Below, in pieces: positions 5,834 through 49,589 of a stretch of DNA of 64,000 bases. The notes below the pieces were generated by a model. It was not told the DNA's origin. It saw only the letters and a list, made by a program, of their open reading frames with translations, and did no database searches. Each line of letters begins with the position of its first letter. The first letter of the stretch is position 1. Source of the stretch: Polyangiaceae bacterium (GTDB lineage Bacteria > Myxococcota_A > Polyangia > Polyangiales > Polyangiaceae). The translations under genes and the position numbers were made by a program. Location: positions 1-64,000 of the forward strand of contig JAKLKA010000035.1 of NCBI GenBank assembly GCA_023150915.1, read 5' to 3'.

Positions 5834-7047
5834 GCTTCTGGGAACGATGGAAGGGCAAGGGCAGTGCCGAGCCCCCGCCGGCGCCGCCGCCGCCTGCCGC
5901 CGCCCCGCCGGCGCCGCGACCGGAGCCGCGCGTCGAACGCTCGCTGCTCGGGGCGCTGGCCGCCGGCGACCCGGTGGACGAGCGCGCGGTGCTCGACGAG
6001 CTGGGCCGTGCGCGCGGTACGGCCGCCGAGAAGCCCGCGCTCGCTGCCGTCGAGGCAGCGGCGGAACGGGGCCTGGCCAGCGAAGCGCTGCGCACCCGCG
6101 CCGCGGAGATCGCCCTGGCGCGCGGGGAGCCCGAGCGGGCGCTGGGCCTGCTCACCGAGGCGGCAGGCCCGGCGGCGCTGCTCTTGGCGGCCGATGCCTG
6201 CGCCGAAACGGGAGCGGTCGCGCGCGCCCTCACCTTGGTCGAGCGCGTGCTGGCTCGCGACATCGACGCGCCCGGCGCGCGCGAGCGGCACGAGCGCTGG
6301 CGGCGCGCGCTCGGCGAGCGCACTCCGGCGGCGGTCTCGGCCCTGAACGAGCCGACGCTGATCCGGGCCGACGCACCCGAGACGGCGCTCAGGATCGTCG
6401 GCGAAGCGGGGCGCGGCGGCGCGGGCACGGTGTTCGAGGCCGTGGACGACGCGCTGGCGCGTCGCGTGGCCCTCAAGATCTACCACCGGCCCGAGCGCGA
6501 GCGCGACAAGCTGGCCCGCGAAGCGCGGACCGCCGTCGCGCTGGCCGGCAGCGGGGTCGTGCGGGTCTACGACGTCGATCTGGACCATGGCTCGCTGGTG
6601 ATGGAGTGGCTCGCGGCCGGCTCGCTCAAGCAGGCGATCGTCCGGCGGGACACCGAGCTGCTGTTTCCGGTCGAGCGCTGGCTGCTCCCGCTGGCGCGCA
6701 CCCTTGCCCGAGTGCACCAAGCCGGGTGGGTTCACGCCGATCTCAAGCCCGCCAACGTCATGTTCCGCGCGCCCGGCCAACCGGTGCTGTCCGACTTCGG
6801 GCTGGCGCATCGCGGGGCTCGCGTGGTCGAGGGCGGCAGCGTCGGGTACATGAGCCCGGCGCGCGTCCGCGGCGAGGCCGTGAGCTTCGCCGAGGATCTG
6901 TACGGCTTCGGCCGGCTCGTCGAGGACGTGCTCGCGCTGGGTGACGCCCCAGAGCGGCTGCGCCGGTTGGTCGCCCGGCTGCTTGCCGCCGATCCCGGTC
7001 TGCCCGACGCGGGCGGTCTGGTCGCGCTGGTCGCGGGACCGGCTTGA
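5830..7047 (+). CDS. Ser/Thr protein kinase with Pro-rich and helical N-terminus
   Basis: The 405-residue protein starts at GTG inside the preceding stop codon. Residues 14-34 are proline/alanine-rich and 40-165 form an Ala-rich helical region like that of the FHA partner. The kinase domain covers about 187-400: a glycine-rich loop GEAGRGGAG, the ATP-binding lysine in VALK at about 216, the catalytic loop HADLKPAN at about 302-309 and DFG at about 322-324. The catalytic loop is of the non-RD type (Ala before Asp), and the usual APE triplet reads SPA. The C-lobe is shorter than usual but all ATP-handling residues remain, so activity is plausible. There is no transmembrane segment, unlike the kinase at 27798-29147. 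Confidence 0.88.
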   Translation: MSFWERWKGKGSAEPPPAPPPPAAAPPAPRPEPRVERSLLGALAAGDPVDERAVLDELGRARGTAAEKPALAAVEAAAERGLASEALRTRAAEIALARGEPERALGLLTEAAGPAALLLAADACAETGAVARALTLVERVLARDIDAPGARERHERWRRALGERTPAAVSALNEPTLIRADAPETALRIVGEAGRGGAGTVFEAVDDALARRVALKIYHRPERERDKLAREARTAVALAGSGVVRVYDVDLDHGSLVMEWLAAGSLKQAIVRRDTELLFPVERWLLPLARTLARVHQAGWVHADLKPANVMFRAPGQPVLSDFGLAHRGARVVEGGSVGYMSPARVRGEAVSFAEDLYGFGRLVEDVLALGDAPERLRRLVARLLAADPGLPDAGGLVALVAGPA

Positions 7048-14356: not shown

Positions 14357-16090
14357 ATGCAGAAGCACCTGACCCTTGCCGCCTCGTCGCTCCTGGCCAC
14401 TGCCCTCACCGCTCACGCCCCCGATGCCGGCGCATTCCCGGGTTTCTTCGTCGGCAAGAAGGACGGCGTCGGCAGCGCCCACGCGACCCATGTGGCGATC
14501 ATGCCGAAGGGCGACACCACCATCGTCAGCGTGATGCCCGACTACGAAGGCTCACTGGACCCCTTCGCGATCGTGATGCCAGTGCCGGCCGACGTGACCG
14601 CCGACAAGGTCAAGACGCTGAAGCGCGAGTTCCTGGACCGGCTCGAGATGCTCACCGCGCCGCGCTTCATGGAGTTCTGGGAGATGGATCCGTGTGATCC
14701 GGGTCCGCTCGAGCAAGAGTGGGAGCGCTCGAAGCTGGCCAGCGCGGACACCGCATTCCTCGGCGGCGGTCAGGTGGGCGGCGAGAAGAAGGTCCCGAAA
14801 GAGATGCTCTTGACGGTGGAGCCGGACTTCAAGGAAGGCGAGTACACCATCAGCGTGCTCGACAAAGACCAGGCGAAAGATCTGGCGGGCTTCCTCAAAG
14901 GGAAGGGTTACGTGCTGGGCGACAAGGCGGCGGCCGCGGTGAAGCCCTACGTGGACGCCGGAATGAACTTCATCGTGGCCGAGGTCGACACCAAGCGCAT
15001 CGAGCTGGTGGGCGGTGAGCGCGCGTCGCTGTCGCCGATTCGCTACTCGACCGCGACCGCGGTCAGCAAGATCCCCGCGAAGCTGGGCTTGCTCAACCTG
15101 GACAAGAAGCAAGAGCTGTTCGTCTACGTGCTGAGCACCGATCAGCGCTACGAGGTGAAGAACTACGGCAACCTCTTCCCGCCGACGAACATCACCGTCG
15201 ACTTCGCGGTCAAAGAGCGGATGGGCGAGTTCTACGGCGCCCTCCACGACATGATCCAAGAGAAAGACCCGAAGACCTTCCTGGTGGAATACGCCTGGCC
15301 CGCCGAGGGCTGCGGGCAGCCTTGCCAGAACGAGGCGCTCTTGCCCCACGAGCTGCTGACCCTGGGCGGTGACGTGCTCGAGCTGCTCGTGCCGGAAGCC
15401 GAACGCCTGCCGGCGCCTCCGGAGATGACGGAAGAAGAGAAGAAGAAGCAAGAGGCCGAGCTCAAGGAGCTGAAGCCCGCCGAGCGGCCCAAAGCCAAGA
15501 AGCAGATGGAGGCGGATCGCAAAGAGCTGGCGCGGCGCAAGGCGCTCTTGGCGCGTCAGAAGTACGTCGTGACCCGGCTGCACCACCGCTACGACGCCGC
15601 CAACCTGCCGGAAGACCCCGAGGTGGGGCCCGCCGGGCACGTGGCCGGCGGCGCCACCATCCCCAAGGGCGAGAAGATGGAGATCTCGAGCGAGGTGAAG
15701 CCGGCCGAGAAGAGCCAGCTGCAGACTCGGTACAACCACTTCCACCCGTGGAAGGGCATGATGAAGTGCGACAAGCCCGAGCGCTGGCGCTGGGGCAAGC
15801 CGCCGCGCGAGTATCGCGGGCTGCGCAAGACCTGGGTCGCGGCGGATCTGACCCGCAAAGATCGGAAGCAGATCGATCCGAAGAAGGTCGTGCAGACGCC
15901 AATCCCCACCTTGGGCCTCACCGGCGTGCCGCTGGTCGAAGACGCCGGGGCCGATGCCGGCACGGGCGGGCCGGCTCCCAAGAAGGGTTGCGGCTGCAGC
16001 ACCCCGGGCGCGCCGAACGGCGGTGCGTTCGTCGGCATCGTGCTGTCGCTGGCGGCCCTGACGGGCGCGTCGCGGCGGCGGCGCGGCTGA
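14357..16090 (+). CDS. DUF2330 protein with MYXO-CTERM surface-sorting tail
   Basis: The 577-residue protein has a signal peptide ending near residue 26 and a long DUF2330-type body of unknown function (FPGFFVGKKDG, IVMPVPADVT). A charged stretch at about 355-400 is rich in Glu and Lys and is likely a helix. The C-terminus is a MYXO-CTERM signal: GCGC at about 544-547, a hydrophobic span at about 556-572 and RRRR at about 573-576. In Myxococcota such tails are processed by myxosortase and the protein is displayed on the cell surface. A -10-like TAGTCT ends nine bases before the ATG. What DUF2330 does is unknown. Confidence 0.88.
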   Translation: MQKHLTLAASSLLATALTAHAPDAGAFPGFFVGKKDGVGSAHATHVAIMPKGDTTIVSVMPDYEGSLDPFAIVMPVPADVTADKVKTLKREFLDRLEMLTAPRFMEFWEMDPCDPGPLEQEWERSKLASADTAFLGGGQVGGEKKVPKEMLLTVEPDFKEGEYTISVLDKDQAKDLAGFLKGKGYVLGDKAAAAVKPYVDAGMNFIVAEVDTKRIELVGGERASLSPIRYSTATAVSKIPAKLGLLNLDKKQELFVYVLSTDQRYEVKNYGNLFPPTNITVDFAVKERMGEFYGALHDMIQEKDPKTFLVEYAWPAEGCGQPCQNEALLPHELLTLGGDVLELLVPEAERLPAPPEMTEEEKKKQEAELKELKPAERPKAKKQMEADRKELARRKALLARQKYVVTRLHHRYDAANLPEDPEVGPAGHVAGGATIPKGEKMEISSEVKPAEKSQLQTRYNHFHPWKGMMKCDKPERWRWGKPPREYRGLRKTWVAADLTRKDRKQIDPKKVVQTPIPTLGLTGVPLVEDAGADAGTGGPAPKKGCGCSTPGAPNGGAFVGIVLSLAALTGASRRRRG

Positions 16091-36581: not shown

Positions 36582-38384
36582 TCAGCCGCCTTCGAGCTTC
36601 TTCTTCAAGAGATCGCCCAGGGTGCCGAAGCCGCCCTCGCGCGCCAGCTGCTGGCGGTACTCGCGGTGTGCCTTGCGCTCTTCGTCCTCGTGCATGGCCT
36701 TCACGCTGAGCTTGGGCTCGCCGCGACGTGGATCGACCTCGAGCACCTTGACCTCGATCACGGAGCCCATCTTGAACGTCTTGCGTAGATCGGTGCCGCG
36801 GGGCGTGCCGGTCTGCCCGGCAGGCAAGAAGCCGCGAGCGCTGCGCCCGGTGGCGCCCAAGATACGCACGATCACACCCGAGGCCTCGTGCTTGATGACC
36901 TCGACCTTGACCACCGCACCGCGCCCGACCTTCTGTGGCTCTTCGTGGGCGCGCTCGGGCGGCGGGGCCGGGTGGAGCGCGATCTTCTTGGTGCGGGGGT
37001 CGAAGTTCGCGACCACCACGTCGATGTCTTGCCCCTCTTTCACCACCTCGTTCGAGTGCTCGATGCGGGTCATCGACAGATCCACGATGTGGATCAGACC
37101 TTCGACGCCCGGTTCGAGCTCGACGAACGCGCCGAAGTCGAGGGTCTTCAGCACTTTGCCCGAGTGGCGCGAGCCTGGGGCGTACTTCTCGCGCGCCGCG
37201 GCCCACGGGTCCTCGATCAATGCCTTGCGGCTCAGCCAGATCTTTCCCTTTTCGTCGATCTTGAGGATCTTCACCTCGAGCTCTTCGCCCGGGCGGACCA
37301 AGTCGACCATTTTCGCGCGGGCGTCGTGGCTGGCCTCGGAGACGTGCACCAACCCTTCGAGGTTCTCGGCCTCGGGCAGCGCGACGAAGGCGCCCCACTC
37401 GACCACGGTGCGGACCACGCCCTTCAGCACCTGGCCTTCGGTCAGCAGCGTGAGCGCGTGCTTGCGGCGTTCGTGGGCCTCGGCCTCGAGCATGGGCCGG
37501 CGAGACACGACCACGTCGCGGCCCGCGTTCTTGTACTGCACCACCTTGAACTCGAGGCGCTGACCCACCAGGCCAGAGAAGTTGGCGTTCTGCGGGTGCA
37601 GGTCCAGGCCCGACGCGGGAGCGAAGGCCCGCAGGCCCGAGATGTCGACCTCGACGCCGCCCTTGATCACGCCGGTGATGAGTCCGGTGATCAGCGAACC
37701 GTCCTTCGAGGCTGCCTCGATGGCGGGCTTGATCTCTTCTTCGCGCAGAGGCTTGCGGGTGAGCACCACCAGGCCGCCACGCACGCCGTCGTTGTGGATG
37801 CGGGCGACGAAGCGGTCACCGACGCTCGGCACCAGATCGTCCGCCTCCATCTCGGTGCGGTCGAAGATGGCCAGGGCCTTGCCCGACAGATCGACCATGA
37901 CCGCAGTGTCGAGCACCGCGGTGACCTTGCCAAAGACCTCTTCGCCCACGTGGAACGGCGCGCGCTCGGTGGCGGGGCGATGGTGCTGGCGCGGACGGTC
38001 GCCGCCCGGGGCGCCCTCGGCACCCTCGGCGCCTTCGGCGCCGGGCTTCTTCTTCTTGCGCTTGCGGCGCTTCTTCTTCTTGCCCGGCTCGCCCGGCGTG
38101 GCGTCGGCAGATGCTGCGTCGGCGGGCTCGCCCTCGTCGCCTTCACCGGTGTCGCCACCGTCGCCATCGCCCTCGCCCGCGTCGTCGCCGTCGCCTTCGC
38201 TGCCCTCGGGCGCCGCGTCGCCGCTGGGGGCGTCAGGGGCAGCTTCGACCGAGCCCGCAGCGCTGCCGGCCGCGCCGGCGTCGTGCGCGCCTTCCGCCGG
38301 AGCTGTCGGTGCGGATCCGGAGGTGTTCGACTCGTCACCGTTCGGCGCCGACTCGATCGCGGGGGTTTCGTTCTCGGAGGACAT
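36582..38384 (-). CDS. S1-domain RNA-binding protein with acidic/basic N-terminal extension
   Basis: Residues 145-600 contain five S1 (OB-fold) domains, recognisable by repeats such as GVVRTVVEWGAFVAL and GKVLKTLDFGAFVELEPGVEGLIH, as in ribosomal protein S1, which binds mRNA on the 30S subunit. The first 100 residues are acidic and low in complexity (Asp, Glu, Gly, Ala), followed by a block KKKKRRKRKKKK at about 102-113. Such a charged extension is not part of ordinary S1. It may be an accessory S1-like protein; whether another rpsA exists cannot be seen here. Confidence 0.85.
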   Translation of the reverse strand: MSSENETPAIESAPNGDESNTSGSAPTAPAEGAHDAGAAGSAAGSVEAAPDAPSGDAAPEGSEGDGDDAGEGDGDGGDTGEGDEGEPADAASADATPGEPGKKKKRRKRKKKKPGAEGAEGAEGAPGGDRPRQHHRPATERAPFHVGEEVFGKVTAVLDTAVMVDLSGKALAIFDRTEMEADDLVPSVGDRFVARIHNDGVRGGLVVLTRKPLREEEIKPAIEAASKDGSLITGLITGVIKGGVEVDISGLRAFAPASGLDLHPQNANFSGLVGQRLEFKVVQYKNAGRDVVVSRRPMLEAEAHERRKHALTLLTEGQVLKGVVRTVVEWGAFVALPEAENLEGLVHVSEASHDARAKMVDLVRPGEELEVKILKIDEKGKIWLSRKALIEDPWAAAREKYAPGSRHSGKVLKTLDFGAFVELEPGVEGLIHIVDLSMTRIEHSNEVVKEGQDIDVVVANFDPRTKKIALHPAPPPERAHEEPQKVGRGAVVKVEVIKHEASGVIVRILGATGRSARGFLPAGQTGTPRGTDLRKTFKMGSVIEVKVLEVDPRRGEPKLSVKAMHEDEERKAHREYRQQLAREGGFGTLGDLLKKKLEGG

Positions 38385-38448: not shown

Positions 38449-39339
38449 TCAGCGCGTGATGGGCAAATGCCGGTTCACCCCGCCGCTGCGGTCGATCACC
38501 AGGCCCCCCGCGGCCGCGCGGTTGTCGTCGTCGAGCCGCTCGATCAGCCGATCGGCCACCTCGACGAAGGCCTTGGCCATGGCCGAGCCGGGGGAGGCCT
38601 GGACCAGCGGGGTGCCGGCGTCGCCCCACTCGCGCACGCTGGGGTGCATGGGGATCTGGCCGAGCAGCGGGGCGCCCGCCATCTCGGCCACCTTGGCGCC
38701 GCCGCCCGAGCCGAAGAGCTCATGGCGCTTGTCGCAGCCGTCGCAGACGAAATAGCTCTCGTTTTCGACCACGCCAGTGATGGGGATCCCCACCTTCTGG
38801 CACATGCTGACCGACTTGTAGACGTCTTGCAGGGCCACTTCTTGCGGGGTGGTGACGATCACCGCGCCGCTGGTGCGCAGCTGCTGCGACAGGGTGAGGG
38901 CCACGTCGCCGGTGCCCGGCGGCAGGTCCAGGAGCAGGTAGTCGAGCTCGCCCCAGTCGACGTCTTTGAGGAACTGCAGCAGCGCGCCGTGCAGCATGGG
39001 GCCGCGCCAGACGATGGCGCTCTTCGGGTCGTCGAGCAGAAAGCCGATGCTCATCAGCTTCACCCCGAACCGCTCGAGCGGCTGAATGCGCTTGCCATCG
39101 GTCATGGGCTGGCCGGTGATGCCGAACATGGTGGGCACGCTCGGGCCGTACATGTCGGCGTCGAGCAGGCCCACGCGGTACCCGCGGCGCGACAGCGCGA
39201 GCGTCAGGTTGGCGGCGACGGTGCTCTTGCCCACGCCGCCCTTGCCGCTCATCACCAAGACGACGTTCTTCACTCCCGGGACCGGATCGCCGGGGGCGAT
39301 GGTGCGGGTGGTTGCGGAGGGGGCAGCGCTCTCGGTCAT
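38449..39339 (-). CDS. Mrp/NBP35-family P-loop ATPase (Fe-S carrier)
   Basis: The 296-residue protein has the deviant Walker A SGKGGVGKST at about 31-40, DADMYGPSVP, and LLLDLPPGTGD. A CDGC pair in YFVCDGCDKRHELFG corresponds to the conserved CxxC that bridges a 4Fe-4S cluster between two subunits. Mrp proteins deliver Fe-S clusters to apoproteins. The usual N-terminal DUF59 domain is absent. The ATG at 39339 gives the proper start just before the ATPase core. Confidence 0.93.
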   Translation of the reverse strand: MTESAAPSATTRTIAPGDPVPGVKNVVLVMSGKGGVGKSTVAANLTLALSRRGYRVGLLDADMYGPSVPTMFGITGQPMTDGKRIQPLERFGVKLMSIGFLLDDPKSAIVWRGPMLHGALLQFLKDVDWGELDYLLLDLPPGTGDVALTLSQQLRTSGAVIVTTPQEVALQDVYKSVSMCQKVGIPITGVVENESYFVCDGCDKRHELFGSGGGAKVAEMAGAPLLGQIPMHPSVREWGDAGTPLVQASPGSAMAKAFVEVADRLIERLDDDNRAAAGGLVIDRSGGVNRHLPITR

Positions 39340-39391
39340 GATCGGCGCTCTCGTAGGGCCTCGGGGGGCGGTCGTCAAACCGGCGTGGCCA

Positions 39392-39435
39392 CAAAACACC
39401 ACCGGCGCGCGTTCCCGCCGGGGAACACGCGCCGG
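39392..39435 (-). terminator. Intrinsic terminator of the cysteine-rich gene
   Basis: A 15-base stem (39402-39416 with 39421-39435, loop GCCG) is complete in the minus-strand RNA with one G-U wobble at 39410/39427; in plus-strand RNA that pair would be a C-A mismatch. On the minus strand it is followed by GGTGGTGTTTTG. This matches a terminator for the gene that stops at 39453. Confidence 0.75.
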
Positions 39436-39452
39436 AGTGTGTGGGGACGCGC

Positions 39453-40682
39453 TTACTTGGTCGAGACCGAGCCGGCGATGCTCGCCGTGACGGTCACCGA
39501 CTCGCTGACGTCCTCGGCGGCGTCGCCGGCGGCGGCGATGATCGCCGGGATGCACGCGGCCTTGATGTCGGTCACGGCGTCCACGTTGCCCGAGAGCTGC
39601 GCCGCGATCTTGCCCATGCCCTCGAGGCGCGCCTTGAAGGCGTAGACCACGCCCAGGTTGGCCTTCAGGGTCCCTTGGAGCTTGCCTGCCGCCTGAACGT
39701 CGGCCGCGCCGGCGAACACCACCGAGACCTCGGGCGGACGGCACTCGGCCTTGGCCTGCACGCTGGCGTCGCAGTTGGCGTCGCACTTGGCCTCGACCTG
39801 GCAGCCGCCCTTCAGCTCGCCGCCGGTGCACTTGATGGGCTCGTAGTCGCCCTTGCACTCGCCGTCGCACTTGACCGACGCCGTGGCCGAGCCCTTGCAG
39901 CTGGCGCTGCAGCTGCCCTTGCAGCTACCGGTGCAGGTTGCCTTCGGCGCGGTGGCCGAGCAGGTGCCCTTGCAGGTGCCCTTGCAGGCGCCATTGGCTT
40001 GCGGACCCGTGCCGCCCGCCGACGCTTCGCAGGTGCCTTCGCACTTGCCGTCGCACTCCACGCCGCCTTCGGCGGTGCAGGCGCCGGTGCACTCGCCGGT
40101 GCACTCGCCCTCGCAGCTGAGCGAAGCGCTGCCCTTGGCCGTGCACTCGCCCTTGCAGGAAAGCTCGAGCTTGCCGCCATCGCAGGTGGGCGGGGTGGCC
40201 TTGAGGTCGCACTTGCCGTCTGCCGAGCACTTGGCCTGGCAGTTGGCCTTGGCGCTGAGCGACGCTTCGCAGACCGGCGGCTTGACCGTCACGGTCAGCG
40301 TGCCCGAGGCCTGCGCCTTGAACTTGCCGATGGCGGTGGTGGCGGCGGTGCACCAGGCCTTCATCTTGGCGCGCTTGTCGTCGTTCTTCTCGGCGGCCTC
40401 TTGGGTGGCCTTGTCCACGTCCAGATCCACCGCGATGGACCGGCAGGCGCCGGTCAAGTCGGTGACCGCGGCCGACGCGATGCCGGCGAAGTCGGCCACG
40501 GCCTGGGCCGCGACCTGGGCGCTGGCGCTGCCCCCGATGTCCCCGGTGATGCTGGCGCCCACCTGGAACTCGGTGCAGCACACGCTGTCCTGCGCCTCTT
40601 TCACCTTGTCGCACGCGCTCATGGTGCTGAGCAGGCCTCCGCCGAGCAGAAGGGCGGCGCCAAAAACGGTGGATTTTCTCAT
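39453..40682 (-). CDS. Cysteine-repeat lipoprotein (CxGxC arrays)
   Basis: The 409-residue product has a type II signal peptide (TMSA before Cys24). Residues 25-130 are helical. The middle third, about 130-290, is a low-complexity array where cysteines recur every four residues (CKGECTAKG, CEGECTGECTGAC, CKGTCKGTC, CTGSCKGSCSASC). The last 90 residues are again helical and apolar. Closely spaced cysteines of this kind suggest metal binding or a disulfide-cross-linked surface layer; I know no family. The ATG at 40682 with GGAGAG upstream is preferred to a TTG two codons earlier. A strong terminator follows. Confidence 0.75.
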   Translation of the reverse strand: MRKSTVFGAALLLGGGLLSTMSACDKVKEAQDSVCCTEFQVGASITGDIGGSASAQVAAQAVADFAGIASAAVTDLTGACRSIAVDLDVDKATQEAAEKNDDKRAKMKAWCTAATTAIGKFKAQASGTLTVTVKPPVCEASLSAKANCQAKCSADGKCDLKATPPTCDGGKLELSCKGECTAKGSASLSCEGECTGECTGACTAEGGVECDGKCEGTCEASAGGTGPQANGACKGTCKGTCSATAPKATCTGSCKGSCSASCKGSATASVKCDGECKGDYEPIKCTGGELKGGCQVEAKCDANCDASVQAKAECRPPEVSVVFAGAADVQAAGKLQGTLKANLGVVYAFKARLEGMGKIAAQLSGNVDAVTDIKAACIPAIIAAAGDAAEDVSESVTVTASIAGSVSTK

Positions 40683-42583: not shown

Positions 42584-43297
42584 ATGAAGACGGTGCTCAC
42601 CAGCGTCGGCGTTCTCGCCCTCACCAGTTTGACGGCCTGTGGTTCCGAGGCCGGCGATCCGCCTGCCCAGCAAGACTTCGACCACGGCACGGTGGTGAAC
42701 ACCGGCACCGGCGGGGGTGGCAACGTCACCGAGCCGCCGTTCTTGCAGTACGCCTATCCCACCGCGCCCTTCGGCTCGCAGATCGACTCGGTGATCGCGC
42801 CGCTGACCTTGCTGGGTTGGAAGGCGCCCATCGACGCGCAGTTCGACACCGCGGCGCTCGAGCCGGTCACCATCGCCGACTTCTACAACCCCGACGGCAA
42901 GAAGCCCTGGAAGCTGATCTGGGTGAACTCGTCGGCCGTGTGGTGTGGCCCGTGCAACAAGGAATACGCCGAGATGCGTGACAGCGACACCTTCAAGCAG
43001 GTGCTCGAGCCCAAGGGCGTCGCGGTCATCGGCACGCTGATGGAGAACATCAGCGCCGGCCCTGCCGCGCCCAGCGATCTGAAGAACTGGGGCGACAAGT
43101 ACAAGGTGCCGTTCCCGCTGGCGCTCGATCCGGCATTCAAGATGGGGCAGTACTTCGAGCAGGCCACGGTGCCGGGCGCGATCTTGGTGGACGCCAAGAC
43201 CATGAAGATCGTCGCCAAGCTTTCGGGTGGCGCCGTTGCCGGTCCAGGGGGCGTGCTCGAAGAGATCGACGCCGCGCTGGCCAACCTTCCCCAATGA
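42584..43297 (+). CDS. Thioredoxin-like lipoprotein, WCGPC type
   Basis: The 237-residue lipoprotein (SLTA before Cys19) has a Gly-rich linker, about 50 residues of unknown type and a thioredoxin fold with WCGPC at about 120-124 and the cis-proline segment ATVPGAILVD. It should act in the periplasm as a disulfide reductase or oxidase. The segment IADFYNPDGKK before the active site recurs as ALSDFYDPDGEK in the lipoprotein at 47132-47812, so the two are paralogues. The stop overlaps the start of the next gene (ATGA). Confidence 0.88.
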   Translation: MKTVLTSVGVLALTSLTACGSEAGDPPAQQDFDHGTVVNTGTGGGGNVTEPPFLQYAYPTAPFGSQIDSVIAPLTLLGWKAPIDAQFDTAALEPVTIADFYNPDGKKPWKLIWVNSSAVWCGPCNKEYAEMRDSDTFKQVLEPKGVAVIGTLMENISAGPAAPSDLKNWGDKYKVPFPLALDPAFKMGQYFEQATVPGAILVDAKTMKIVAKLSGGAVAGPGGVLEEIDAALANLPQ

Positions 43298-43833
43298 AGT
43301 GCGCCGGCATCGTGCTCGGCGCCGCGGTGGCGCTGGCCGCGCTGGGTTGCAGCGGCGGTGGCAGCACGGGTCCCGGTGCCACGGGCGCCGAGGGCAGCGG
43401 CGCGCGGCCGCCTGATTTCGAGCTCTCGACCATCGACGGCAAGACGGTGCGGCTGTCGGATCATCTGGGCAAAGACGTCATCTTGATCGACTTCTGGGCG
43501 ACGTTCTGCGACCCGTGCATGGCCTCGATGCCGCACCTGGACGAGCTCTACAAGAAGCACAAAGACAAGGGCTTCGTGGTGCTTGGCGTCAGCATCGACG
43601 GGCCCGACTCGGTGGCGCAGGTGAAGAGCACGGTCTCCAAGCTCGGCGTCTCGTTCCCGATCTTGCTCGACCAAGAGACCAGCGTGGTCGCCCTCTACAA
43701 CCCCAAGACCAGCGCGCCGTTCAGCGTGCTGATCGGCCGGGACGGCAGCATCATCGCCAAGAAAGAGGGCTACACCACCGGCGACGGCACCGCCGTCGAC
43801 CGCGACGTGGAAGCCGCGCTGGCGAAGAAGTAG
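43294..43833 (+). CDS. TlpA-like thioredoxin lipoprotein, CDPC type
   Basis: The 179-residue lipoprotein (AALG before Cys19) is a TlpA/ResA-type thioredoxin: PPDFELSTIDGKTVRLSDHLGKDVILIDFWATFCDPCMASMP with cysteines at about 72 and 75 and the later LGVSIDGPDSVAQV. The active site is CDPC rather than CEPC or CGPC, which shifts redox potential in other family members. TlpA-like proteins reduce cytochrome c or copper-binding apoproteins. It is translationally coupled to the preceding thioredoxin-like gene. Confidence 0.93.
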   Translation: MKCAGIVLGAAVALAALGCSGGGSTGPGATGAEGSGARPPDFELSTIDGKTVRLSDHLGKDVILIDFWATFCDPCMASMPHLDELYKKHKDKGFVVLGVSIDGPDSVAQVKSTVSKLGVSFPILLDQETSVVALYNPKTSAPFSVLIGRDGSIIAKKEGYTTGDGTAVDRDVEAALAKK

Positions 43834-43834
43834 C

Positions 43835-43895
43835 GGGGCGAAGCCCCCCCTCGCGAAGCCCCAGCCCGCGGAGACACATGGGTCTTGGAAGACCC
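43835..43895. terminator. Two hairpins between convergent genes
   Basis: GGGGC (43835-43839) pairs with GCCCC (43843-43847) around GAA directly after the TlpA-like stop. GGGTCT (43880-43885) pairs with AGACCC (43890-43895). They occupy the 73-base gap before the convergent MATE gene and may end transcripts from both sides. No long T-runs are present. Confidence 0.45.
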
Positions 43896-43906
43896 GAGGA
43901 ACTGGC

Positions 43907-45241
43907 TCAGCGCGGCGGGGCCGACACACGCAAGAAGCGCGAGGCGAGGAGCAGCGCCGCCACCGTCAGGCCCACGATCAGCCCGATCCACATGCCCTTC
44001 GGCCCGAGCCCCGCGCCAAGCGCGAGCCAGCCCCCGAGTGGGATACCGATCAGCCAATACGCGATCAACGCGAGCAGCATCGGCACCCGGGTGTCCTTCA
44101 GGCCGCGCAGCGCGCCGTTCGACAGCACCTGCGCGCCGTCGGGGAACTGGAACGCCGCGGCGTAGGCAATCAGGCTGGTGGCCAGGGCGCCGACCACCGC
44201 GTCGTTCGAGTACAGGCGGACCACGGCGCCGCGACCCAGCACCAGCGCGGTACCCGTGGCGGCCTGGGTGCCGAGCATCAGCACGAAGCCCGCGAAGGCC
44301 GCGCGGCGAATGCCGGGGAGGTTGCCCGAGCCGACGGCATGGCCCACCCGCACCGTGGTGGCTTCTGCCAGGCCCAGCGGGATCATGAAGCACAAGCTGG
44401 CGACGTTGATGGCGATCTGATGGGCTGCGGCGGGGATTTCGCCCAGTCGGCCGATGAGCAGCGACGCGAAGATGAACAGGCTGCCCTCCATCAGCACGGT
44501 GAAGCCAATCGGCGCCCCCACCGCGAGCAGCGCACGGATCTCGCCCAGCCGGGGTGGGTCGAACCGACCGAAGAGCGCGAGATCGCGGAAGCGACGCGCA
44601 CGCGCCAGGTAGAGCCCGAGGGCGATGGCCTGCAGCCACATCACCGTTGCCGAAGCGAGTCCCAGCCCCTTCGCGCCCAGCTCGGGCAGCCCGAAGGCGC
44701 CGAAGGTGAGGGCGTACCCCAGCGGCACCAACAGACACAGGCCGGCGAACGCCAGCAACATCGACGGCACCGTGAAGTGCAGGCCGTCGGCCAGGTAGCG
44801 CAGGCACAGGAACACGGCGAAGGCCGGCAGGCCCCAGCGGACGCCGTGCAAGAAGCCGGTGGTCCCCGGCGCGATCTCGGGCGCGATGCCGATGGGCCCG
44901 AGGGCGTGCGGCACGAAGGTCATGTACGCGAACAAGAGCGGGCCGAGGGCCAGCGACACCCACAGCGCCTGGCGCAAGAGCGGGCCGATCTCGTTCCGCC
45001 GGCCGGCACCAGAGAGTTGCGAGACCGCCGGCGGCACGCTCATCAGCGTGCCCAGCACCACCGTCAGCGGCAGCCACATCAGCGCGGTGCCGATGGTGAC
45101 CGAGGCCAGGGTGCGCGTACCGTGGTGCCCCGCGATCACGTTGTCGACGAAGCCGACCAGGCCCGTGGACAGGTGACCGACCACCAGCGGGCCGGCGAGC
45201 GTGGCGGTGGTGCGTAGCTCCGAGCGGAACGAAGCCGTCAA
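43907..45241 (-). CDS. MATE-family multidrug/metabolite efflux transporter
   Basis: The 444-residue inner-membrane protein has about 12 hydrophobic helices in two halves. MATE-style segments include GHLSTGLVGFVDNVIAG in helix 1, PPAVSQLSGAGR, and in the second half AAHQIAINVASLCFMIPLGLAEATTVRVGH, which is highly typical. It exports organic cations or metabolites in exchange for sodium or protons. The start is TTG overlapping the stop of the outer-membrane gene (TTGA); a later start would cut helix 1. It is the last gene of a four-gene operon. Confidence 0.93.
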   Translation of the reverse strand: MTASFRSELRTTATLAGPLVVGHLSTGLVGFVDNVIAGHHGTRTLASVTIGTALMWLPLTVVLGTLMSVPPAVSQLSGAGRRNEIGPLLRQALWVSLALGPLLFAYMTFVPHALGPIGIAPEIAPGTTGFLHGVRWGLPAFAVFLCLRYLADGLHFTVPSMLLAFAGLCLLVPLGYALTFGAFGLPELGAKGLGLASATVMWLQAIALGLYLARARRFRDLALFGRFDPPRLGEIRALLAVGAPIGFTVLMEGSLFIFASLLIGRLGEIPAAAHQIAINVASLCFMIPLGLAEATTVRVGHAVGSGNLPGIRRAAFAGFVLMLGTQAATGTALVLGRGAVVRLYSNDAVVGALATSLIAYAAAFQFPDGAQVLSNGALRGLKDTRVPMLLALIAYWLIGIPLGGWLALGAGLGPKGMWIGLIVGLTVAALLLASRFLRVSAPPR

Positions 45242-47127
45242 AACCTCACGGTCGCGTCGAGCCGCGCGCCCTCGAACGCCGGGTACTTCCGACACACGCC
45301 GCCCACGCAGCGCAGCGACCCGCGGCGCTGACCGACGAAGGCGCTGACGCTGGACGACGACGTGATCTTGTAGCTGACCTGGCCGTTGAAATACGTGTCG
45401 GGCACGCCGGGATCGGTGCTGTATTCCGCGCCGAAGGCCGCCGAGAGGTGCGGCGCCCAGTCGACGCCGGTCAGGTGCTGGCCCTCGAACCACGGCGCCT
45501 CGGGCCCGCCCGCCACCTGGTGGCGGCGACGGTGCCACCCCTGAAGCTGGAGCGAGAAGGGGCCGCCCAGGTGGCGGATCACGTCGTAGCGCGCGTAGCT
45601 CTCTTGATAATAGAGGTGGGTCTGGGCGCCGCTGGCGATCGAGATCTCTTCTTCGGCCTGGTCGATGCGGGCGCCGACCGTGAGGTTCGCGCGGCTCTTG
45701 CGCTTCTGGCTGGTGATTTCCATGCCGGTGGCCAGATCCCACACCCGGTTCAGGTTGGCGTTCGAGGTCTCGCAGCTCTCGTTCAGCGAACGCTCGGCCC
45801 AGGTTCGATAGTGACCGACCCAGGCGAACACGCTCTCGTCTTTGCCCAGGTGCACGTCGCCCTTCAGCCGCCCGCCAGTGACGCAGGTGTTGAAGCCCTC
45901 GAACTCGGTGTCGACCCAGAAGGCCTCGGTGGTGGGCGGGGCGCTGTACTGCACCAGCGCGAACTCGGGCGCGCGCGCGGTGTTCACGTTGGCGCTGAGC
46001 GCGAAGAACCGGCGATAGTGCTTGCCCTCGAAGGTGAGGGTGAGCGGATCTTGGATCAAGGTCAGGGCGCCGTACACCGCGTAGCCCCGCTTACCGCCGA
46101 GCAGCTCGCGGTCCGAGCTCGAGCCGTCACGATCGGCGTCGTCCAGGCTCTGCAGCGCGACCTCGACATAGCCGTCGCCGTGCCCGCCGAAGTCGGCGAC
46201 CTCGATCGACTGACTGCCGGTCAAGACCGTGTCGGCCTGGCGAACCACGTCGACGTTGAGGGGATCTTGCCGGCGCAGGAACGACGCCTGCGTCCCGAGC
46301 TTGAACCCCTTGGGCGCGATCTCGATCTGCGCCGCGCCCAGCCGATCGGGGGCGTAGGTCGGGGTGCGGGGTACGAAGTCGGTCTCGACGGCGCGCGGCA
46401 TGCCAGCCTCGGTGGCGGCCAGCCAGCTGGGGGTGACCGTAGAGTCCACTCCCAGGTAGCGGCCGCTGGCCTCGTCGATGCGCAGCGGGTTCATCTCGCC
46501 GCCCAGGGCCGTGAGCCGCAGCTTGACCGGCCCGGCGTTCACGCGCCCGGTGATCCGCGCGCCGCGCACCGTGGTGTCGCTCGCCAGCTCGTCCATCTTG
46601 CGCACGCTGAGCACGAACCCGCGGCCGAGGGCCGCGTAGAAGTCGCCGGCGGTCAGCTCGACGTCGCGCGTGGTGTAGCCCACGTAGTATTTCGACGGAT
46701 AGACCCAGTTGATGTAGCGGTTCGACAGCTCGGCGCCGGCCTCGTCGAACTTCTGGCGGAAGAGCTGCGCGTCGGAGATGCCGCCGCCGGCCGGGCGCGT
46801 CTCGACCACGTCGAGCGCGATGGCCTCGGGGTAGGGGGAGCGATAAAACCAGGCGTTGTCGACGCGAACGCCGAGGGTGAGCTTGCCCCACGACGCCTGC
46901 AGGTTGAGCCGGTTGTACCACATGCCCCACTCGTCGTTGGCGCGGGTGGGCACCTCGAGCGGGCGCGTGTCGCGGTTGTCGAAGTTGTAGAGCACGCTCG
47001 AGGCGTTGGTCACGTCCACGTGCACCGCGTCGCTGCCCAGCTTGCCCGGCTCGAGCGCGCGAGCCGGCGCGGCCAGCGTGAGCCCCAGCGCTGCCGCCCG
47101 CGCAGCCCTTCCGACCCTCACCCGCAT
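45238..47127 (-). CDS. Outer-membrane beta-barrel protein, DUF6029-like
   Basis: The 629-residue protein has a signal peptide ending near ARA|LEP and then many short amphipathic strands with aromatic girdles (YNRLNLQASWGKLTLGVRVDNAW, YYVGYTTRDVELTAGDFYAALGRGFVLSV), ending in ARLDATVRF with the C-terminal Phe needed for barrel insertion. It resembles the DUF6029 family of unknown function. Two cysteine pairs occur in loops (NTCVTG, RCVGGVC). It is four bases after the thioredoxin-like gene and overlaps the MATE start, so a shared role is likely. Confidence 0.8.
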   Translation of the reverse strand: MRVRVGRAARAAALGLTLAAPARALEPGKLGSDAVHVDVTNASSVLYNFDNRDTRPLEVPTRANDEWGMWYNRLNLQASWGKLTLGVRVDNAWFYRSPYPEAIALDVVETRPAGGGISDAQLFRQKFDEAGAELSNRYINWVYPSKYYVGYTTRDVELTAGDFYAALGRGFVLSVRKMDELASDTTVRGARITGRVNAGPVKLRLTALGGEMNPLRIDEASGRYLGVDSTVTPSWLAATEAGMPRAVETDFVPRTPTYAPDRLGAAQIEIAPKGFKLGTQASFLRRQDPLNVDVVRQADTVLTGSQSIEVADFGGHGDGYVEVALQSLDDADRDGSSSDRELLGGKRGYAVYGALTLIQDPLTLTFEGKHYRRFFALSANVNTARAPEFALVQYSAPPTTEAFWVDTEFEGFNTCVTGGRLKGDVHLGKDESVFAWVGHYRTWAERSLNESCETSNANLNRVWDLATGMEITSQKRKSRANLTVGARIDQAEEEISIASGAQTHLYYQESYARYDVIRHLGGPFSLQLQGWHRRRHQVAGGPEAPWFEGQHLTGVDWAPHLSAAFGAEYSTDPGVPDTYFNGQVSYKITSSSSVSAFVGQRRGSLRCVGGVCRKYPAFEGARLDATVRF

Positions 47128-47131
47128 CCGG

Positions 47132-47812
47132 CTACTTTCCGCGTTTGTCGAGCTCGCCCTCGACGAAGGGCCAGATGACCTCGCTCTGGTCGCCGGTGGT
47201 GCCGAACAGCACCTTCATGGTCTTGGCCTCGATCACCAGGTTGAGCGGCGCGAGCTTGGTGACGTTGAACGTTCCGCCGAGCTGGTTCTCGGGGTCGAGC
47301 ACGAAAGGGAAGTTCGTCTCGTAGGTCTTGGCCCAGCTCACCAGGTGCTTCTCTTGGGCTGGATTGGACTGGCCGTCCTGGAACAGCGCGCTCAGCACGC
47401 GAAACCCGCGAGGCGCAAGCTCGGCCGCGTGCTCGCCCAGCGAGGGGTTCGAGCCGGTGCCCGCGTGCTCGTTCTTGCAGGCGCCGCACCAGCCTGCGGC
47501 GGTGTTGAGCAAGACCAGCTCGATGCCCTTCTCCCCGTCCGGATCGTAGAAGTCCGAGAGCGCGATCGGGACGAGCTTCGCCGGGTCGTAGCCGTCGGCC
47601 TTGGGGTTCATCCAGCCCTTCGCGAACTGGATGTCCGCGACCGGGTCGTTGCTCTGGATGTCTTTCGCGTACGGCCCGCTCGGGTAGCCCGCCTTGGTGC
47701 CCGAGTCGTCCTTCAAGAGATAGTCGGGAATGTCTGGCCGGTTGGTGCCGCACGCCGCCCCACCCAGCGCCAGCGCCAGCACCACCCCCCGAGAGCGGGC
47801 ACGGATAGGCAT
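47132..47812 (-). CDS. Thioredoxin-like lipoprotein, WCGAC type
   Basis: The 226-residue lipoprotein (GGAA before Cys21) carries a thioredoxin-like domain from about 80 with active site GWCGAC at about 107-112 and the typical QLGGTFNVTKLAPLNLVIEAKTM, where the cis-proline equivalent follows. ALSDFYDPDGEKG before the active site matches its paralogue at 42584-43297. It would work in the periplasm or on the outer membrane. Start and preceding stop share one base (TGATG), which couples it to the lipoprotein gene upstream. Confidence 0.88.
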   Translation of the reverse strand: MPIRARSRGVVLALALGGAACGTNRPDIPDYLLKDDSGTKAGYPSGPYAKDIQSNDPVADIQFAKGWMNPKADGYDPAKLVPIALSDFYDPDGEKGIELVLLNTAAGWCGACKNEHAGTGSNPSLGEHAAELAPRGFRVLSALFQDGQSNPAQEKHLVSWAKTYETNFPFVLDPENQLGGTFNVTKLAPLNLVIEAKTMKVLFGTTGDQSEVIWPFVEGELDKRGK

Positions 47813-48789
47813 CACTTCTTCTTGATGCCGAACATGCCGAGGACCGGGATCCCCTCGCCGTCGTTCGTGATCACGGACTTGCCGTCGGCGCTGACCTTGC
47901 CCCCGCTGACCTTGGCCCAGCCGCCGTAGGGCGCCCACTCTTGGCCCACCGAGACACCGTGCAGCCAGATCTCGACCTCGGTGCCGGCCGCCCAGGCCGG
48001 CGTGTTGGGGACGCTGAGCTTGGCGTGCGGGCAGAAGTGGGTGTCGATCGGCGTGGTGCCCACCAACATCTCGAAGCCGGCGGCCTTGTCCACCGCCGGC
48101 GGCGCCTTCGCCATCGGGATCTCGACCGCCCGGAACTTCTTCAGCTCGGGCGAGTCGTAGAGCACCTCGTCGATCTCGATGGTGGCGCCGGACGCCAGGG
48201 TCACCATCACGTTGCTGCTGGTCGCGGCCGCGCCGGCCACCAGCGGCGCGCCCTGGCTCGGATCCGGAAGCTTCGCGGTCGTCACGGTGCCCATGTCGTA
48301 CTTGGCGGCGTTGGTCGGCAAGAGCTGGGCGAACTCGACGTAGACGGTGCCATCGCCGTACTTGAATGCGGGGCGCTTCAGCTCGACGCCTGGCAGCGTG
48401 CCGGCCAAGCACAGGCCGCTGGTCTGGTCCTTCTGGCAGACCACGCCTTGGTCGTCGGTCGTGGCGGGTGGAGCACAGATGTCGGTCCCGCACACGAACA
48501 CCGGCACGCCTGCGGCGGGCGCGCCCGCGGCGTCCACGATCTTCGCTTTCAGCTCGTCCACCTTGTGAGCCGGGTCACTCGATGGGTAGCCGGGGCCATC
48601 GGCGCACGACGGACCGCCGCCGCTGCCCGCGCCGCCGCCACCACTTCCGCCGGTAGACGAACCGCCGGCGCCACCGGCGCCGCCCCCCGAGCTGCCGCCG
48701 CTGCCGGCGGCGGCGTCGTCGCCCCCGCAACCCGTGACCCCGACCATCGACACCAACAAGAACGCAGAAGCGAGATGCAGCGCTGTCAT
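47812..48789 (-). CDS. Lipoprotein with Gly/Ser-rich linker, first gene of the redox operon
   Basis: The 325-residue lipoprotein has a signal peptide ending VTG before Cys21, then a 40-residue Gly/Ser linker and a globular part with about seven cysteines (VFVCGTDIC, GVVCQKDQTSGLC, HFCPHAKL). Beta-type residues dominate the second half (GAAATSSNVMVTLASGATIEIDE). AGGTGA upstream of the ATG at 48789 supports this start over a GTG three codons earlier. It heads the operon with thioredoxin-like, barrel and MATE genes, so its cysteines may be the redox target. No family is recognised. Confidence 0.75.
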   Translation of the reverse strand: MTALHLASAFLLVSMVGVTGCGGDDAAAGSGGSSGGGAGGAGGSSTGGSGGGGAGSGGGPSCADGPGYPSSDPAHKVDELKAKIVDAAGAPAAGVPVFVCGTDICAPPATTDDQGVVCQKDQTSGLCLAGTLPGVELKRPAFKYGDGTVYVEFAQLLPTNAAKYDMGTVTTAKLPDPSQGAPLVAGAAATSSNVMVTLASGATIEIDEVLYDSPELKKFRAVEIPMAKAPPAVDKAAGFEMLVGTTPIDTHFCPHAKLSVPNTPAWAAGTEVEIWLHGVSVGQEWAPYGGWAKVSGGKVSADGKSVITNDGEGIPVLGMFGIKKK

Positions 48790-48911: not shown

Positions 48912-48998
48912 TCCGCGGCGCAGGGCGACACCGCTGCCCGGGGGTGGCCTCTGCCTCGGGGTGGCAGCTGCGTTCTCGCCAAGGTACCTTGCTGATTG

Positions 48999-49589
48999 AT
49001 GCTCAGACCGTCGATGGCTCCGAAGCGTCCCGCGCGCGTCCAGGCGACGACGGTGCGGGTGCGCGAGGCCTTCGTGGCCGAGCGTTTCGGTTCGAGCGCC
49101 GTGCAACGTGTGCGCAGCCTGGCCTCGCCCGAGCTGCGCGAGCTCTTGCTCGCGGCCGGCCCGCCACCGGGGGGCTGGGTGCCGTTCTCGCTGTTCGTCG
49201 AGATGAACCAGCTGCTCGACCGCACCTTGGGCAAAGGGGACGGCGAGCTGGTCTGGGAGAGCGGGCGGTTTGCGGCCTCGCACAACGCCGGTGTCTGGAA
49301 GAGCCTGATCATGCGCCACGTCACGCCCGCCATGCTGGTGAGCCTGGCCAGCAGTCTGTGGAGCAAGCACTACGACGGCGGCCGGCTGGTGAGCCGCCCG
49401 GGCGGCGGCTCGTGCGTGATGGTCAGCATCGTCGACTTCCCCGAGCCCGACCTGGCGCACTGCAGGGCCGTTGGCGGGTGGATGCAGGGCTCGCTCGAAA
49501 TGGGGCCGCGCAAGAACCCCAAGGTGAAAGAAGTCGCGTGCCGCAGCGCTGGCGCTGCCATCTGCGAGTTCCGGCTGACCTGGGACTGA
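48999..49589 (+). CDS. DUF2378-like / V4R-related protein
   Basis: The 196-residue protein resembles the DUF2378 family (TIGR02265), a group expanded in myxobacteria, and more distantly the heme-NO-binding/V4R fold. Visible features are RELLLAAGPPPGGWVPFSLFVEMNQLLDR, the GRFAASHNAG segment and a C-terminal CRSAGAAICEFRLTW that matches the V4R-like CxxGxxxCxFxxxW ending. It lacks a signal peptide and is likely a cytoplasmic small-molecule sensor. ATG at 48999 is taken; an ATG at 49014 is also possible. Confidence 0.65.
   Translation: MLRPSMAPKRPARVQATTVRVREAFVAERFGSSAVQRVRSLASPELRELLLAAGPPPGGWVPFSLFVEMNQLLDRTLGKGDGELVWESGRFAASHNAGVWKSLIMRHVTPAMLVSLASSLWSKHYDGGRLVSRPGGGSCVMVSIVDFPEPDLAHCRAVGGWMQGSLEMGPRKNPKVKEVACRSAGAAICEFRLTWD

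Follow-up and report, generated by a model that had tools for sequence, protein, structure and literature searches.

A ResA-like thioredoxin and a DUF6029 outer-membrane barrel form a conserved unit in Myxococcota, accompanied in Polyangiaceae by a cysteine-rich lipoprotein

Studies of thiol–disulphide chemistry are many for the inner membrane and the periplasm and few for the outer membrane. At the inner membrane, the thioredoxin-like proteins ResA, TlpA and CcmG take part in the maturation of cytochromes. At the outer membrane, LptD is a large barrel whose disulphides depend on the periplasmic enzymes DsbA and DsbC (PMC3526765), TraA/TraB pairs a cysteine-rich surface protein of myxobacteria with a partner outer-membrane gene (PMC3325183), and a role in polysaccharide export has been proposed for DUF6029-like barrels (PMC9603273). 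Here we analyse a 64,000-nucleotide stretch of a Polyangiaceae bacterium (contig JAKLKA010000035.1, positions 1 to 64,000; hereafter the window), which encodes a DUF6029 barrel (B) together with a ResA-like thioredoxin lipoprotein (R), two further thioredoxin-like lipoproteins (T and T') and a cysteine-rich lipoprotein (C). The component folds are known; their combination is undescribed in the literature searched, which lacks most subscription papers. In that literature we found no account of a module of thioredoxin, DUF6029 barrel and C; DUF6029 is named in one paper only, and in work on Omp28/TlpA and on myxobacterial thiol systems we found nothing on the module or on the related Prevotella gene run described below. 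We show that R and B are an evolutionary unit, and our data suggest that the module is an envelope thiol–disulphide system with dedicated clients, managing the disulphides of surface proteins.

Of 282 genomes sampled across the phylum, 118 encode a DUF6029 protein, whereas 14 control genomes encode none. Phylum-wide linkage was counted in 78 DUF6029 loci outside Polyangiaceae. In 62 of these the distance between R and B is at most 1.5 kb (60 on the same strand), and in 39 T is no more than 2.5 kb from B (38 on the same strand). In four further loci, L132, L141, L171 (family f46) and L207 (f55), R and B are joined in a single open frame that runs from the thioredoxin domain through a short linker into the barrel; the L141 and L207 fusions start with a signal-like segment, and Pfam detects both domains in L141. 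Barrel N-termini face the periplasm, so the fused thioredoxin is expected at the periplasmic mouth of B. These fusions are the strongest argument that R and B act while touching each other. When the neighbours of the distant loci were clustered, none beyond T, R and B was common to most loci, and the conserved clusters within about 8–10 kb of the barrel contained no polysaccharide genes. The next cluster, of 29 loci, was considered as a partner and set aside, as it looks like open reading frames (ORFs) antisense to the barrel. A preliminary description of the window, made from its letters, had named a conserved neighbourhood across Myxococcota as a check on its proposal; such a neighbourhood is present in both the family and the phylum.

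The association may extend further. A tblastn search with the fused protein also matched one Prevotella record (L211, Prevotella sp. oral taxon 299), in which a full-length DUF6029 gene (613 bits) shares its first bases with a ResA-like gene (WCKPC) that precedes it, and an Omp28 gene (182 bits) comes next; the C-terminal part of this barrel carries NCAGGVCRYVP and then the final strand. The evidence from Bacteroidota consists of this single record; a further search of a plasmid collection brought up no other. The same-strand run at 5905–10958 of L211 comprises the ResA-like, DUF6029 and Omp28 genes, an unknown gene and a second Omp28-like gene with FTGMWCPYC.

B matches DUF6029 (PF19494) at 60.2 bits against a gathering cut-off of 27, which bears out its earlier assignment as a DUF6029-like barrel. 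It has a signal peptide, and its last residue is a Phe in the terminal strand. An AlphaFold2 model built from an alignment of 51 sequences (pLDDT 90.9, pTM 0.86) shows about 24 membrane strands, which are joined by short turns at one face of the barrel and by long loops at the opposite face; the strand count and the sides on which cysteines fall were read from the secondary-structure string of the model. On this basis we are confident in modelling B as an outer-membrane β-barrel. Because the chain ends in a Phe strand, as barrels do at the periplasmic side, the long loops are placed outside, and C607 and C612 (a CX4C hairpin before the last strand), C415 and C452 are all predicted to lie in outer loops. 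The CX4C motif is present in all 116 aligned barrels and in all 78 phylum loci (the 116 include a few genes fetched twice, and the two sets overlap), and many barrels carry just these two cysteines. C415 and C452 are retained in most of the first barrel set and in family f8, and in 0 of 32 other distant barrels. A link between this second pair and C was rejected, as the distant barrels L131 and L135 stand beside a C gene and lack the pair. The best conserved stretch of B, GDxYAQxGRGLVLSVRKxDEL, falls in short strands following strand 4 and may project into the barrel lumen. By sequence, no solved relative of B was found. The top structural matches of the model are the ushers FimD/PapC and MtrB (Z 15–16), tied with OprD-type and other porins, TonB receptors, AlgE and LptD; all matches are barrels, and as comparisons of a model they indicate a large barrel by shape and carry no information on function.

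R, of all the neighbouring genes the one with the closest tie to the barrel, belongs, by sequence, to the ResA/TlpA-like thioredoxin family. Its best solved relative is ResA (E = 3e-22), and its CxPC motif is steady, being kept in nearly all relatives. It scores under the ResA equivalog cut-off (NCBIfam NF002854; 101.5 bits versus 170), and the thioredoxin-like lipoproteins fall below the ResA, TlpA and DsbE equivalog cut-offs. Against the Pfam AhpC-TSA cut-off of 26 bits, T (31.1 bits) and R are over and T', taken alone, is under (24.5 bits), yet the profile of the T/T' family finds ResA structures (E = 2e-12). WCxxC is invariant across the T family alignment, as is the likely cis-proline, and together with the profile these motifs confirm from sequence the thioredoxin fold that had been proposed for both paralogues. 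The paralogy also stands: T and T' align with E = 1e-29, and a tree of 109 T proteins places them in two groups that are sisters, with support of 91/85 for the pair of groups and 100/97 for that of T'. Because the two groups are sisters, the pair fits a duplication within the subclade of the window. The dipeptide within WCxxC varies among relatives of T (GP, SV, AA, PP, TY and VY); we therefore rejected the reading of redox potential from this dipeptide, and the suggestion that GP, DP and GA imply distinct potentials in the three proteins is not supported. A third T-like gene of the genome (C234, L167) was considered as a second module and rejected, with neither a barrel nor C nearby. Long T-like proteins with three CxxC motifs (WCGTC, SCATC and GCxQC) are encoded a few kilobases from the barrel in several loci (L097:14326-16053, L148:16645-18531 and L121:17295-19181).

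C, which the preliminary description overlooked, is the strongest candidate client of the module. Across 56 relatives it holds 35–73 cysteines, and its alignment has 35 columns that are at least 90% cysteine, 23 of them invariant. Among Polyangiaceae genomes, B and C occur together in 42, B alone in 4, C alone in 0 and neither in 14 (Fisher P = 1.8e-10, uncorrected for phylogeny and thus too small for related genomes). The shared absence of B and C spans many genera, and in five genomes (G009, G011, G016, G017 and G030) C and a T gene are on one contig and B on another. In this family, then, C is kept with the R–B unit. C matches no Pfam family, and its score against the myxobacterial cysteine repeat TIGR04201 is 15.1 bits against a cut-off of 25, with 3 of 42 relatives matching marginally. 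Its AlphaFold model consists of small, short-stranded domains (pLDDT 80); no solved relative was found by sequence and no significant Foldseek match by fold, and the best match in a further structure search (VIA), to a Dickkopf N-terminal domain (Z 3.0), was not used as an identification. A second cysteine-rich lipoprotein, K, with CxGxC-type repeats, follows C in some loci.

The barrel alignment, used as a search query, retrieved 77 loci with myxobacterial or unspecific deltaproteobacterial titles, including Sorangium, Polyangium, Minicystis and Labilithrix. ORF clustering and profile mapping gave C< T> R> B> as the usual order in Polyangiaceae (arrowheads indicate gene direction). Among 50 loci with at least 4.5 kb on each side, T and R were each found near B in 45, C in 41, K in 19 and I, a lipoprotein encoded beside T' in the window, in 14, some of the gaps being due to overlong ORF calls. 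In the subclade to which the window belongs the order is derived: C< T> R> comes first, then B< T'< I< as an inverted block, and the WCxxC gene is duplicated; the barrel is inverted in 12 loci, the window included. I is present in 15 loci of the barrel-search set, its relatives precede T-R-B in family f36, and they lie within 5 kb of B in 15 of the 78 phylum loci. The divergent C< T> layout is kept in most loci, and the gap between the two genes is therefore likely to be a shared promoter region. Coordinates are collected in Table 1.

Table 1. Genes and intergenic region of the module in the window, with the basis of each assignment
Feature	Protein	Position	Strand	Basis
T, WCGPC thioredoxin-like lipoprotein	P0001	42584–43297	+	AhpC-TSA over cut-off; WCxxC invariant; family profile finds ResA
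R, CDPC ResA-like thioredoxin lipoprotein	P0002	43294–43833	+	AhpC-TSA 83 bits; ResA is best solved relative
MATE transporter, local neighbour outside the conserved unit	P0006	43907–45241	-	Pfam MatE 158 bits
B, predicted DUF6029 outer-membrane barrel, about 24 strands, Cys 415/452/607/612	P0005	45238–47127	-	DUF6029 60.2 bits; AlphaFold2
T', WCGAC thioredoxin-like lipoprotein, paralogue of T	P0004	47132–47812	-	30% identity to P0001; tree
I, lipoprotein without a match in the family libraries, precedes T' in the clade of the window	P0003	47812–48789	-	Neighbourhood profile mapping
C, cysteine-rich lipoprotein, candidate client or partner	P0007	40848–42416	-	Cysteine columns; divergent from T; co-occurs with B
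K, second cysteine-rich lipoprotein adjoining C, optional member	P0008	39453–40688	-	21 loci, 30–39 Cys
C–T divergent gap, 167 nt		42417–42583		Gene coordinates; C< T> retained in most loci

The start of C was set at the ATG preceding the signal peptide, within an open frame that extends to 42533; the true start of K may lie several codons downstream of the translated one. The six genes named in the preliminary description exist, on the strands it gave. T and R overlap by 4 nt and converge on the minus-strand run I–T'–B–MATE, which is tightly packed as described but not fully overlapping, as 4 nt separate the WCGAC gene from the barrel. An envelope thiol module with a barrel stands, with revised edges: C, which lies outside the described stretch of 42584–48789, is in and the MATE gene is out. 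The family identity of the transporter holds; its proposed role in exporting a small partner is not supported, because a strict search of 78 loci placed it beside the barrel in two, namely the window and L050, a close relative. The flank fetched for G001 (L014), a genome of the same genus, lacks it, and many other MATE labels near barrels were overlapping shadow ORFs that dropped out under the strict search. An S1-domain RNA-binding protein and an Mrp/NUBPL-type ATPase adjoin the module (36582–38384 and 38449–39870, both minus strand) and recur by the barrel in 23 and 25 of 78 loci, respectively, probably as old chromosomal synteny. Just past the minus-strand run, the product of 48996–49589 (plus strand) has a weak V4R match (24 bits against a cut-off of 31), and a DUF2330 protein is encoded at 14357–16090 (plus strand).

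We tentatively favour a model in which the module is a thiol–disulphide station on an outer-membrane channel, serving disulphide-rich surface proteins. R, docked on B or fused to it, would act at the periplasmic side of B, with T as a second enzyme beside it. The two would act on the cysteines of surface proteins rich in disulphides; in Polyangiaceae the main such protein would be C, with which they would be in contact. These clients would be kept reduced or reshuffled while they dock at, or pass through, the wide barrel, and their disulphides would form afterwards, at the surface; the CX4C loop on the predicted outer face of B could be a structural disulphide or the last exchange partner. The genome encodes one DsbD-type protein, which could supply electrons, and one VKOR-type protein (G000:C260:11650-11988), which could supply oxidation, so that a reducing and an oxidising input are both present; no DsbB match was found in the genome. 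In its furthest form, which we consider unlikely, the model describes a new outer-membrane translocation machine of Myxococcota and, as the ResA–DUF6029–Omp28 form, of Bacteroidota: a wide barrel that bears a thioredoxin, docked or fused, at the mouth on the periplasmic side, where disulphide-rich proteins are kept reduced and passed on to the surface. What points to protein transport through B is a similarity of modelled shape to ushers.

Several observations weigh against the proposed station. The conserved cysteines of B are predicted on its outer side and thus not on that of R, and R resembles the reducing ResA, whereas C would end up oxidised. The fold matches of the barrel are tied, the placement of its cysteines comes from a secondary-structure string, and the co-occurrence statistic is inflated by relatedness. 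About half of the distant loci showed no T in the neighbourhood of B. C, moreover, is near the barrel in just 2 of the 78 loci outside the family; it is therefore a partner in Polyangia, not phylum-wide, and cannot be the general client. The main rival, possible if somewhat doubtful, needs no extra client outside Polyangia: R and T would be disulphide catalysts devoted to B itself, in the way that LptD has DsbA and DsbC (PMC3526765), forming or proofreading its surface disulphides (CX4C, and C415–C452 in Polyangiaceae) before insertion, after which B would do work unrelated to thiols. CX4C is indeed present in every examined barrel wherever R is. A simple CX4C hairpin disulphide, however, hardly needs two private enzymes, and a function that lasts accounts better for an enzyme permanently fused to its client and for the loss of B together with C.

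Second among the rivals, and doubtful, is that B is a channel for cargo of another kind (for example a polysaccharide, or else a metal complex or small thiol compound), with R and T modifying the cargo or protecting the channel and C acting as a surface receptor or accessory. The absence of C from most of the phylum, the presence of AlgE, OprD-type porins and TonB receptors among the tied fold matches and the published suggestion of polysaccharide export (PMC9603273) speak for it; yet the phylum-wide clusters gave only T, R and B, and a polysaccharide pore would leave the fused thioredoxin unexplained. Very unlikely, in our view, is the thiol electron relay of the preliminary description, taken here as one that starts at thioredoxins in the periplasm, crosses the outer membrane by way of cysteines in the barrel and ends at a surface substrate. 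It would be suited by the fusion of a thioredoxin at the periplasmic mouth, by the invariant dithiol predicted to lie outside and by a cysteine-rich surface candidate, but no chain of cysteines runs through the barrel, the many barrels with CX4C alone have that pair predicted far from R, and no precedent is known. That the genes are ordinary envelope genes with no joint function, neighbours by chance, is scarcely credible: the rearranged order of the window and its unrelated MATE gene could suggest this, and the phylum-wide R–B linkage, the fusions in two families and the shared absence with C contradict it. The phylum-wide linkage, in places by fusion, of a thioredoxin to a barrel whose invariant CX4C loop is predicted at the surface gives DUF6029, a family of unknown function, a concrete partner and a testable role, and it bears on how very cysteine-rich proteins come to be correctly folded on the myxobacterial surface.

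Among known systems, ResA, TlpA and CcmG share with R the fold and the CxPC motif, and the profile of T leads to ResA; R and T differ in being predicted lipoproteins tied to an outer-membrane barrel. LptD is among the tied fold matches of B, but its enzymes are general and encoded elsewhere, whereas here they are in the operon or fused. TraA differs from C, a lipoprotein with no PA14 or MYXO-CTERM match, and TraB is OmpA-like where B is DUF6029. The FimD/PapC ushers and MtrB are, like the model of B, wide barrels of 24–26 strands; the conserved set shows no usher plug and no chaperone or cytochrome genes, and the likeness is one of shape. In the Prevotella run, Omp28 replaces T and C is absent, whereas the order of R and B, their overlap and the CX4C loop are the same as in Myxococcota.

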